A stretch of 64,000 nt of DNA, from the NCBI RefSeq assembly GCF_001974875.1, contig NZ_MTQD01000001.1, positions 434,001-498,000 on the forward strand, in the 5' to 3' direction. The position numbers and the translations under genes were made by a program. Every line of letters starts with the position of its first letter. Position 1 is the stretch's first letter. The notes beneath the pieces are model-generated. The model was not told where the DNA came from and made no database searches. It saw only the letters and a program-made list of their open reading frames with translations. The DNA comes from Pseudoalteromonas sp. EB27 (lineage in GTDB: Bacteria; Pseudomonadota; Gammaproteobacteria; Enterobacterales; Alteromonadaceae). Positions 41,810 to 60,734 of this stretch are shown piece by piece.

Positions 41810-41885
41810 TGGAGCGGTACACGAGGCTCGAACTCGTGACCTCGACCTTGGCAAGGTCGCGCTCTACCAACTGAGCTAGTACCGC
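41810..41885 (-). tRNA. tRNA-Gly(GCC), copy 3 in transcription order
   Basis: 76 bases including encoded CCA. The minus strand has acceptor arm GCGGTAC/GTACCGC with discriminator T, D-arm AGCTCAGTTGGTAGAGC, anticodon stem-loop CGACC-TTGCCAA-GGTCG (anticodon GCC) and T-arm with GTTCGAG. Identical to the next two copies. Confidence 0.97.
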
Positions 41886-41928
41886 ATTATATTTTCATTC
41901 AACACTACAATTTCTTTTGGTTAGAAAT

Positions 41929-42004
41929 TGGAGCGGTACACGAGGCTCGAACTCGTGACCTCGACCTTGGCAAGGTCGCGCTCTACCAACTGAGCTAGTA
42001 CCGC
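41929..42004 (-). tRNA. tRNA-Gly(GCC), copy 2
   Basis: 76 bases, same sequence as the flanking copies: anticodon GCC, CCA encoded, discriminator T as expected for glycine tRNAs. Separated from both neighbours by 43-base spacers that share CACTACAATTTCTTTTGG. Confidence 0.97.
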
Positions 42005-42047
42005 ATTTTACTTCTTTTAATCACTACAATTTCTTTTGGTTAGAAAT

Positions 42048-42123
42048 TGGAGCGGTACACGAGGCTCGAACTCGTGACCTCGACCTTGGCAAGGTCGCGC
42101 TCTACCAACTGAGCTAGTACCGC
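42048..42123 (-). tRNA. tRNA-Gly(GCC), copy 1
   Basis: 76 bases, promoter-proximal copy of the three-gene array, which recalls the E. coli glyVXY cluster. Same cloverleaf and anticodon GCC as the other copies. A good promoter lies about 90 bases upstream (42210-42237). Confidence 0.97.
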
Positions 42124-44911: not shown

Positions 44912-45031
44912 TGTAGACCTAGAGCTTGCTCACGTTAAAAGCGTCAGCTTTTGGTTTATATTTAATTGCAGGCTGCACCGTTTATATTTTTATGGACTTC
45001 GTCCATCACGCCAGCAAGCTGTGCGTCTACA
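44912..45031. repeat. Inverted-repeat element, copy A
   Basis: 120 bases. The left end TGTAGACCTAGAGCTTGCTC is complementary, with mismatches, to the right end CAGCAAGCTGTGCGTCTACA. An inner hairpin GGACTTCGTCC is visible. Same family as 55170-55296 and 55335-55461. No ORF. Confidence 0.7.
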
Positions 45032-45057: not shown

Positions 45058-45103
45058 TGTAGACGTAGAGCTTGCTCACGTTAAAAGCGTCAGTTTTTGG
45101 TTT
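45058..45103. repeat. Inverted-repeat element, partial copy B (left end)
   Basis: TGTAGACGTAGAGCTTGCTC followed by ACGTTAAAAGCGTCAG repeats the left part of copy A closely, but the right end is missing. Confidence 0.65.
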
Positions 45104-45145
45104 CTTAACGCCACATGTAATAACAGGCACAAGCCCCTCAAAAAC

Positions 45146-49523: not shown

Positions 49524-49587
49524 GTAGGTGCGAATTCACTCGCACTTCTTCAACTTTTAAAGAAGCGAGGTATAAAACCTCACCTAC
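49524..49587. repeat. Nested inverted repeat between thiC and thiO
   Basis: Outer arms GTAGGTG...CACCTAC and inner arms CTTCTT...AAGAAG give a nested 64-base hairpin in the 105-base thiC-thiO gap. It looks like a REP-type palindromic element. It may affect thiC versus downstream gene levels; that is inference. Confidence 0.6.
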
Positions 49588-51701: not shown

Positions 51702-51710
51702 TGATTTAGG

Positions 51711-51811
51711 CAGCTTGTTCCCTACGCAGGTATTAACCTGATCAGGTTCACGGATCCCGCTTTCGCGATCTCAGCCACAAACTAATTAATTAGCTTTGGC
51801 ACTCCGACAAG
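51711..51811 (-). promoter_or_regulatory. TPP riboswitch (THI element) upstream of thiC
   Basis: The minus strand contains the conserved GGCTGAGATCGCGAAAGCGG, GATCCGTGAACCTGATCAGG and TAATACCTGCGTAGGGAACA segments of the TPP aptamer, closed by a CTTGTCGG-containing stem. Followed at once by an intrinsic terminator, so control is probably transcriptional: TPP binding favours termination. Confidence 0.96.
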
Positions 51812-51883
51812 TATTGATATATAAATTCTGTTCATTGATTTGAAGGTATTACCCAACAAATCTGCACTGAGTGTACGTCAGTT

Positions 51884-55113: not shown

Positions 55114-55148
55114 AAAAACACCGCGTTTAAATTAAACGCGGTGTTTTT
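55114..55148 (+). terminator. Terminator after the TonB-dependent receptor
   Basis: AAAAACACCGCGTTTAA pairs perfectly with TTAAACGCGGTGTTTTT; 17-bp stem ending in a T-run. Confidence 0.92.
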
Positions 55149-55169: not shown

Positions 55170-55296
55170 TGTAGACGTAGAGCTTGCTCACGTGAGAAGC
55201 GAAGCTTCTGATTACTTTAAGTTAAGCATAAACGACATATAATCGAACAACTTTTTAAAGCTTCGCTTTAACGCGTCAGCAAGCTGCACGCCTACA
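55170..55296. repeat. Inverted-repeat element, copy C
   Basis: 127 bases. Ends TGTAGACGTAGAGCTTGCTC and CAGCAAGCTGCACGCCTACA are imperfect inverted repeats; inner arms AAGCGAAGCTT and AAGCTTCGCTT are also complementary. By eye it differs from copy D at only about 8 positions. No ORF. Confidence 0.8.
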
Positions 55297-55334
55297 GGGT
55301 ATTTAAAACACCGAGTTCAATTTTATGGCTGTGT

Positions 55335-55461
55335 TGTAGACGTAGAGCTTGCTCACGTGAGAAGCGCAGCTTCTAATTACTTTACACTAAGCATAAACGA
55401 CATATAATCGAACAGCTTTTTAAAGCTTCGCTTTAACGCGCCAGCAAGGTGCACGCCTACA
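55335..55461. repeat. Inverted-repeat element, copy D
   Basis: 127 bases in direct orientation to copy C, 38 bases after it, so the 400-base gap between the receptor gene and epmA is almost entirely terminator plus two copies of one element. It is preceded by ACCGAGTTCAATTTTATGGC, a sequence also seen before partial copy E. Confidence 0.8.
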
Positions 55462-55470
55462 GGCTAAGCA

Positions 55471-56445
55471 TCACGCTCTTTGCACATCAAACGCAATTAC
55501 GTCTTTAATTTTCTCTTTGTTTGTTGCGAGCATTACCAACCTATCAATCCCCAAAGCCACCCCTGCGCACTGTGGTAATCCATGCTCCAGCGCTTTAATT
55601 AAACGCGTATCCATTGGCACTTGCTTTAAACCGTTTTCAGCGCGGTATGCGTTATCTTCATTAAAACGTTTAGCTTGCTCACTGGCATTTGTGAGTTCGT
55701 TAAAGCCGTTAGCCAATTCCATATTTTTGTAATAAAGCTCAAAGCGCCCTGCTACGCGTGTATCGTGTTCACAAATTTGTGCAAGTGCCGCTTGAGAAGC
55801 TGGAAAATGATAAACAAAACACGGTTTTTCTTGTCCTATTGTTGGCTCCACTTTCATACAAAACAATAATTGCAGTAAGGTATCTTTATGCGTTTCATTT
55901 TGGGCTATATCAGCAAACCCCTGCTTACACGCTAGTTGCTTTAATTGCTCTATGCTTGCGGTTAACGGGTCGAGGCCGAGTGCTTTTTCAAACGCTTGCT
56001 GATAAGTAAGTCTAGTTGCAGGCTCGACACCTAAAACAAGTTGCATTAACTCATCCATTTCATCCATAAGTGCAAATTCATCAAAGCCTGGGCGATACCA
56101 TTCCAGCATAGTAAATTCAGGATTGTGATGACTACCCGCTTCTTCATTTCTAAATGCTTTACAAAGCTGAAAAATAGCGCCTGAGCCTGCTGCTAACAAG
56201 CGTTTCATGGCAAACTCTGGAGATGTTTGTAAAAATAAAGGAAGCCCACCAGCATGCCCTGGACCTACAAATGTGGTATTAAAACTAGCTAAGTGCACAT
56301 CGGTTACACTGGCAGCACTTAAGCTTGGCGTTTCTACTTCTAAAACATCACGTGCATAAAAAAATTCACGAATGCGACGTAATATCGCTGCGCGTTGTTT
56401 TAGTGTTTCAATGCTTGCGCTTGGGGCCCAAAGATCTGCTGACAT
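55471..56445 (-). CDS. epmA: EF-P lysine ligase EpmA (GenX/PoxA)
   Basis: 324 residues, class II lysyl-tRNA-synthetase catalytic core without the anticodon-binding domain. Motif 2 region [20 protein letters not shown] and motif 3 [12 protein letters not shown] are intact. It attaches (R)-beta-lysine to Lys34 of EF-P. GGAGAAAAT precedes the ATG. Downstream of efp on the same strand. Confidence 0.95.
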
Positions 56446-60644: not shown

Positions 60645-60690
60645 CGTAGGAGTAGAGCTTGCTCACGCGAAAAGCGCAGCTTTTAATTAC
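60645..60690. repeat. Inverted-repeat element, partial copy E (left end)
   Basis: CGTAGGAGTAGAGCTTGCTC followed by ACGCGAAAAGCGCAGC repeats the left half of copies C and D, and is preceded by ACCGAATTCAATTT as before copy D. The right end is absent. Confidence 0.6.
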
Positions 60691-60734
60691 TTATATTTAA
60701 TTACTCATATCTAATATCTAACAAAAAATATTTT

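Follow-up and report, generated by a model that had tools for sequence, protein, structure and literature searches.

Tandem REPINs between a TonB receptor gene and epmA in Pseudoalteromonas sp. EB27: a RAYT-linked repeat family and the probable local history of its copies

Results

Structure of the two tandem copies

In the window, that is, the whole stretch of 64,000 nucleotides analysed, a TonB receptor gene and epmA converge on a gap that holds a terminator-like hairpin and two imperfect inverted repeats, copies C and D. The features of the gap are as follows (window positions).

55114 to 55148, listed by the scan on the minus strand: intrinsic-terminator-like hairpin of 16 base pairs after the TonB receptor gene
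55170 to 55296, plus strand: copy C, REPIN of family 1, 127 bases, from sequence comparison with D
55171 to 55192, plus strand: left REP of C with GTAG tag and bulged hairpin, pattern match with 0 mismatches; this hairpin type also flanks the transposase gene RAYT1
55195 to 55209, plus strand: inner hairpin in the left arm of C, AGAAGCGAAGCTTCT, from the hairpin scan; the counterpart in D is at 55360 to 55374
55274 to 55295, minus strand: right REP of C, inverted and of another subtype than the left REP, pattern match with 0 mismatches
55297 to 55334, plus strand: C-D spacer, 38 bases, which together with one REPIN makes a tandem unit of 165 bases
55335 to 55461, plus strand: copy D, REPIN of family 1, 127 bases, from sequence comparison with C
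55336 to 55357, plus strand: left REP of D, pattern match with 0 mismatches
55439 to 55460, minus strand: right REP of D, pattern match with 2 mismatches

An earlier note on this DNA had described C and D at this place, with about 8 differences in 127 bases and 38 bases between them, and the description proved exact to the base. The alignment is gapless, with mismatches at positions 33, 41, 51-53, 81, 107, and 115; by our own reading, 33, 107, and 115 fall in the REPs or the inner hairpin, and 41, 51-53, and 81 in the middle part. The ungapped direct repeat is longer than the copies themselves, by 3 bases on the left and by 5 on the right. Each copy is built in the order GTAG, bulged hairpin, inner hairpin, loop, inner hairpin, hairpin, CTAC, and in C the left REP is of the subtype TAGAGCTTGCTCACG and the right REP of the subtype TGCAGCTTGCTGACG. 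A GTAG (GTA/GG) tag with an imperfect palindrome is present, as is an inverted pair of REPs that forms one hairpin. The full copies are REPIN/BIME doublets of two inverted REPs each.

The folding potential ascribed to the repeats was confirmed for the whole copies as RNA. Copy C folds at -47.3 kcal/mol (z -6.6), with 0 of 200 shuffles as good, and copy D at -37.0 kcal/mol (z -3.3), with 1 of 200 as good. The DNA folds are -27.9 (z -5.1) for C and -21.0 (z -2.7) for D, and the doublet folds strongly on both strands. The single 23-base REP arms of C, folded as DNA, are at shuffle level (z -0.64 and 0.23), so the strength of the fold belongs to the doublet.

Distribution in the window and in the genome

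Further copies of family 1 and one REPIN of a second family lie elsewhere in the window.

44912 to 45031, plus strand: copy A, REPIN of family 1, after psd, found by pattern and alignment
45058 to 45106, plus strand: left-half copy B, adjoining copy A, found by pattern and alignment
49524 to 49587, strand not assigned: family-2 REPIN, downstream of thiC; family 2 is the one found around RAYT2
60646 to 60715, plus strand: left-half copy E with GTAG, after galE, found by pattern and alignment

Copies A, B, and E are as the earlier note had them, and the family-2 REPIN was absent from its list. According to our own coordinate conversion, a family-2 REP lies at about the matching place downstream of thiC in the genomes G032 and G010. 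Other elements of this part of the window are a TPP riboswitch before thiC (51702 to 51816, minus strand) and three tRNA genes with equal scores and a spacing of 119 bases (41813 to 42123, minus strand).

With up to 3 mismatches, the REP consensus was found at 8 places in the window, compared with a mean of 0.03 in 100 shuffles. The local score to copy C was 88 for the gap of A and 76 for the gap of E, against maxima of 46 and 51, respectively, in 500 shuffles, and the 5' flank of E resembles the C-D spacer (score 42 versus a maximum of 25 in 300 shuffles). The three window gaps with family 1 are intergenic and all convergent: psd and a gene of the MoeB-ThiF type, the TonB receptor gene and epmA, and galE and a gene for a Fe2+-dependent dioxygenase.

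A genome-wide search, which the earlier note had proposed as a check, revealed a dispersed family. The 127-base query gave 72 matches at E≤10 in the whole genome (4.5 Mb), of which 30 had E values no higher than 1.2e-5; apart from C and D themselves, a single match was full-length (70%). The exact REP pattern was matched 42 times in the EB27 genome (G000), and 35 of 108 genomes of the genus had any match, compared with 1 match of the reversed pattern across the same 108 genomes. None of the 25 family-1 clusters in the stretches read from the EB27 genome lies inside a complete open reading frame of at least 100 aa, a count that considers complete frames and not those cut by the end of a stretch. 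The placement of all copies between genes, as originally described, is consistent with this count, and the copies are dispersed and extragenic in the manner of REPINs and BIMEs. Among the 22 clusters with both neighbours visible, 14 lie between convergent, 6 between tandem, and 2 between divergent genes.

Window positions 43-62.3 kb and nine syntenic stretches were scanned, with strict settings, for HH doublets formed by any GTAG hairpin. Such doublets occurred in three gaps, plus one chance-like pair in G031, with 0 in 10 Markov controls; the scan found none in 7 of the 9 relatives' stretches and misses weak or damaged arms, such as those in G007, G010, and copy A.

Two further ideas about placement were considered. 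A REPIN stands close after an intrinsic terminator at psd and at the TonB receptor gene, but only 2-3 of 23 clusters in the EB27 genome show this arrangement by eye, so terminator targeting as a general rule was dropped. By eye, a hairpin like that at 55114 to 55148 is present in near relatives both with and without a REPIN. Families 1 and 2 share one gap in the EB27 genome with the strict family-2 pattern and three with a looser pattern, which may detect another hairpin class; since the number of gaps was assumed, this co-location was not used as evidence.

In addition, two REP-like units 481 bases apart were noticed at G000:C11:371381 and 371862 (locus L019), and the pair appears to be vertically conserved, because the listings for G061 and G008 include pairs with equal spacing.

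RAYT1 and the repeats around it

A related REP-associated tyrosine transposase (RAYT), which the earlier note had suggested looking for, is encoded in the genome and is flanked on both sides by the C/D-type repeat.

C36:130154-130612 (L006:4152-4613, minus strand): RAYT1, 153 aa, uninterrupted frame, profile match, with arrays of C/D-type REPs around the gene

Three proteins of the EB27 genome pass the NCBIfam REP_Tyr_transpos cut-off of 80 bits, with 120.1 (RAYT1), 135.4, and, barely, 82.3 bits. RAYT1 also has the Y1 transposase domain (PF01797, 40 bits, threshold 23). Its HLH and a Tyr, which we take to be the catalytic residue, align with E. coli TnpA-REP 4er8. RAYT1 is present in one copy, the other two proteins above the cut-off being a relative of 42% identity and a longer, more distant one. 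RAYT2 lies on the contig of the window and is flanked by a different REP, GTAGGTGAGGTTTTATACCTCGC, which defines family 2; this hairpin occurs 17 times in the EB27 genome and, with at most 1 mismatch, in 9 of the 108 genomes of the genus.

The link between RAYT1 and family 1 extends to other genomes. Thirty loci with RAYT1 or a related gene were compared; every one of them has one or more GTAG hairpins near that gene, and the hairpin sequence follows the RAYT clade (a single-hairpin scan run without a random control). Ten loci, including that of EB27, carry a RAYT at least 60% identical to RAYT1; the C/D hairpin is on at least one side in 10/10 and on both sides in 8/10, in a scan that needs an intact GTAG. 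These ten genomes have 10-141 exact family-1 REPs each, compared with any such REP in 25 of the 98 others (Mann-Whitney p 1.9e-9, kinship ignored). The same ABC-F gene is near RAYT1 in 8 of the 10 loci, EB27 included. Among 14 named loci, this ABC-F neighbour was seen in five, all with at least 65% identity (L082-L086), and in 0/9 with at most 60%. RAYT1 thus has the character of a single-copy, non-spreading gene at a conserved locus.

Family-1 REPs are also frequent in some genomes of another kind: 12 of the 98 genomes without a RAYT1 of at least 60% identity, including G007 and G010, have at least 10 of them, and several of the 12 carry related RAYTs of 50-54% identity. G007 and G010 have 31 and 20 exact REPs and do not belong to the 62 genomes in which a RAYT was matched at E 1e-10. 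The REPs in such genomes read as relics or as elements that may be served by related RAYTs, and REPs may outlive their transposase, because these two genomes are rich in REPs and have no RAYT match at this threshold. Taken together, the idea of mobile repeats tied to a RAYT holds, because of the 42 exact REPs and the flanking of RAYT1 by this very repeat.

The repeats could in principle belong to an unrelated class, such as the attC sites of integrons, CRISPR, or a classical MITE that depends on a DDE transposase of its own, since they are imperfect inverted repeats of ~100-140 bases with a nearly regular tandem spacing. However, the C/D site has no Rfam match at gathering thresholds, the copies bear GTAG tags and are associated with RAYT1, and other GTAG hairpins adjoin other RAYTs. 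This explanation is hardly credible.

An IS110-family (RNA-guided) transposase gene lies at L006:5004-5987 (G000:C36:131006-131986), positioned at the GTAG of one REP of the array around RAYT1, and is the only close copy in the genome. By eye, a matching IS110 junction, GTAG followed by ATACCATCTCTC, is seen in the psd gap of G061 (L208), and a right-end IS110 scar is kept in the psd gap of G067 (L207). IS110 elements that target REPs are already known (PMC11208160, in the part available).

The TonB receptor-epmA gap in related genomes

The comparison covered 31 gaps closed by both the TonB receptor gene and epmA (17, including that of EB27, plus 14); 13 of 30 loci have no epmA and were left out, as was G068, whose gap runs off the locus. 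At up to 3 mismatches, the family-1 pattern marks 11 of the 31 gaps as holding one or more REPs of this family or of a closely similar type (G022 and G123 by a single match); its chance rate is 4 matches in 1000 shuffles of the EB27 gap. Family 2 is in 6 (in G025 by a single match), both families are in 2, and neither is in 16. The copy numbers in the gap, from the sequences read, are as follows.

Family 1: G000 (EB27) 2, G007 1, G032 5, G118 7, G061 3, G069 1, G081 1 decayed
Family 2: G031 9, G067 2, G010 1, G061 1, G069 1

The two families occur together in G061 and G069. By eye, a decayed left half is apparently kept in G021 and G022, and other GTAG-like hairpins are in the gap of G025, G005, and G006. 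In genomes of the same order, 23 of 24 had no match to a flank query and one matched the terminator hairpin alone.

In G010, G031, G061, and G067, the REPIN that comes first after the terminator belongs to family 2, and the sequence from there to the end of epmA includes a short stretch resembling a family-1 right end, e.g. GCGCCTACAGGC in G031 (both by eye). Family 2 may have replaced the first family-1 copy or landed in it; we infer this with reserve, because the remnant was read by eye and is only ~8-12 bases long. Inspection of the TonB receptor-epmA site by eye revealed neither a target-site duplication nor an excision; the divergence of the empty sites is too great for junctions to be located.

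The distribution bears on whether the repeats are fixed regulatory structures of these genes, i.e. bidirectional terminators or mRNA 3'-end stabilisers under selection. The convergent setting of the three window gaps and of 14 of the 22 clusters would fit such a role, as would the strong folds of the doublet on both strands and the presence of family 1, family 2, or both in 15 of the 31 closed gaps. However, in the 16 gaps with neither family the two genes remain neighbours all the same, the gap already has a perfect terminator hairpin beside the receptor gene, and close species differ in the copy number and in the family. We consider a selected regulatory role unlikely.

Repeats of other kinds were also noticed in the gaps. 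Short GTTGTCA tandem repeats (CAGTTGTCAGTTGT...) lie between stop codon and terminator in several relatives (L028, L197, L199, L200, and L167). Another palindromic repeat of ~120-130 bases, CTTCTCTAAAGCGCAGCG ... CACAAAGAGAAG, was seen by eye in gaps of L207, L162, L167, L164, and L219; in the psd gap of G067 several stand in tandem and in part separate the halves of a REPIN.

Age of the C-D pair

The kinship of copies at the same site was compared in 36 of 73 doublets, those from G000, G032, and G007 minus one G007 doublet at the galE site. Among them, C and D are closest to each other (0.94) and then to the same-site copy of G007 (0.88), while they reach 0.77 at most with other copies of their own genome. 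The listed same-site copies of G032 score 0.75-0.79 with C and D, and the EB27 copies at RAYT1 0.76-0.77; one G032 copy reaches 0.78-0.79 with C and D, yet also 0.76-0.78 with five G000 copies listed from other sites. Because these scores hardly exceed those of copies within the genome, G032 taken by itself would leave same-site kinship undecided. For copy A, the copies in the same gap of G032 are the closest (0.89-0.94), the next best being 0.72. Overall, same-site pairs between genomes average 0.78 (n=67) and different-site pairs 0.71 (n=272), a difference that block permutation reaches in 87 of 2000 cases and that is therefore modest.

The sister species G118 has an array of seven copies in the gap, in which the 38-base spacer occurs six times with 3, 0, 2, 1, 1, and 1 differences, one of them identical to the C-D spacer (38/38). 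The steps between the spacers are 150, 165, 165, 165, and 166. The repeated unit of G032 can be aligned as far as window position 55491-55492, which is 21-22 bases into the coding end of epmA. With at most 4 mismatches, the 22-base piece of this coding end occurs 5 times in G032, 4 times in G061, and 2 times in G069, compared with once each in G000, G010, G031, G067, and G118; G007 has no match. The arrays of G032, G061, and G069 thus grew by tandem duplication of DNA that included host sequence, because a transposing REPIN is not expected to copy a piece of epmA. In G000 and G118, where the spacer is of another kind, duplication is suggested by the regular period.

The earlier note had read the high identity in tandem as a sign of recent amplification, and this part of it was not supported, since C and D are closer to the same-site copy of G007 than to any other copy in their own genome and G118 shares their spacer and period. 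On the same grounds, the insertion looks old and shared, with a tandem number that varies, and C and D appear to belong to an older array, one that expands and contracts by tandem duplication. A rival account is that C and D are two recent, independent insertions of adjoining REPINs. Their 94% identity, the tandem layout, and the frame of RAYT1 without stops in the EB27 genome are in its favour; the same-site kinship with G007, the spacer shared with the seven-copy array of G118, and the inclusion of the epmA end in the duplicated DNA of G032, G061, and G069 all speak against it. We regard two such recent insertions as very improbable.

Discussion

Our results indicate that copies C and D are, with high probability, two REPINs of one family, of which RAYT1 would have placed one long ago and whose number at this site would since have changed locally, through duplication and deletion in tandem. 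As an HUH tyrosine transposase, RAYT1 would have acted on single-stranded REP hairpins through the GTAG tag, and one REPIN would thereby have been set after the terminator of the receptor gene. Tandem duplication or deletion, by slippage or recombination between copies, would then have fixed the copy number, leaving two units of 165 bases in EB27 and seven copies in the sister species. We infer the placement by a RAYT by analogy with known systems. Located between two convergent genes, the hairpins are most likely passive 3'-end structures at best. The finding needs no new mechanism.

A more speculative idea, which we hold possible but rather doubtful, is that the gap serves as a recycled docking site for REPINs of two RAYT systems, and perhaps, in more distant species, of a third hairpin family, so that the position and not the sequence persists. 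If so, it would be a preferred single-stranded target, or a place where an array of hairpins is useful.

The gap is valuable as a record of the arrival, multiplication, and loss of REPINs at a single site. It separates two natural processes, namely rare placement, presumably by a RAYT system, and the local expansion and loss of tandem copies, in which host DNA is duplicated along with the repeat. With 0, 1, 2, 3, 5, 7, or 9 copies of either family at one orthologous gap of close species, and with two families that are each found around a separate RAYT, rates and replacement become measurable in strain collections.

The kind of element is well known. In the open-licence literature searched, by titles and abstract openings, no description of REPINs in Pseudoalteromonas was found, and neither this family nor the history of the gap was found described in the parts of that literature that were available. 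According to the sections available, REPINs frequently occur in tandem, where local amplification or deletion is possible, and RAYTs are single-copy genes passed on vertically (PMC8049555). The repeats are similar to the REPINs of Pseudomonas fluorescens SBW25, which, as far as the accessible text describes them, are doublets of inverted REPs that form a hairpin, have a cluster beside each RAYT, and occur in ordered tandem clusters of near-identical REPINs with flanking sequence included (PMC3116915). In contrast to the SBW25 elements so described, those of EB27 have left and right REPs of distinct subtypes and arms with a further inner hairpin, belong to another sequence family and genus, and are far fewer.

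The turnover of REP classes between related strains of Pseudomonas and Stenotrophomonas (orthoswitch) is a further parallel; the part of that report at hand states that new REP variants may partly replace old ones and that proliferation would cease after loss of the RAYT (PMC3686654). Unlike the cases in that part, two REP families with separate RAYTs here share one orthologous gap, across or within species. The members of the GTAG REP superfamily are likewise, in the portion available, dimers with GTAG outside, including heterodimers, with structured spacers and clusters reiterated with flanking DNA (PMC3733652); the main text of that paper has 0 occurrences of Pseudoalteromonas.

RAYT group 2 (E. 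coli type) is recognised by a C-terminal extension together with a bulged cognate REP; what was observed on this point is a bulge in the REP stem of the RAYT1-linked family. RAYT1 itself differs from E. coli TnpA-REP, to which it is weakly similar (phmmer E 5e-5, residues 56-141). The E. coli BIMEs and TnpA-REP, as described in the available sections, share with the present system the GTAG tag, the bulged imperfect palindrome, two inverse REP types, tandem copies, and REPs that flank the RAYT (PMC8266576; PMC2817692). In E. coli, TnpA-REP binds and cleaves single-stranded REP, and both the GTAG and the bulge are required, according to the same part of the former source (PMC8266576).
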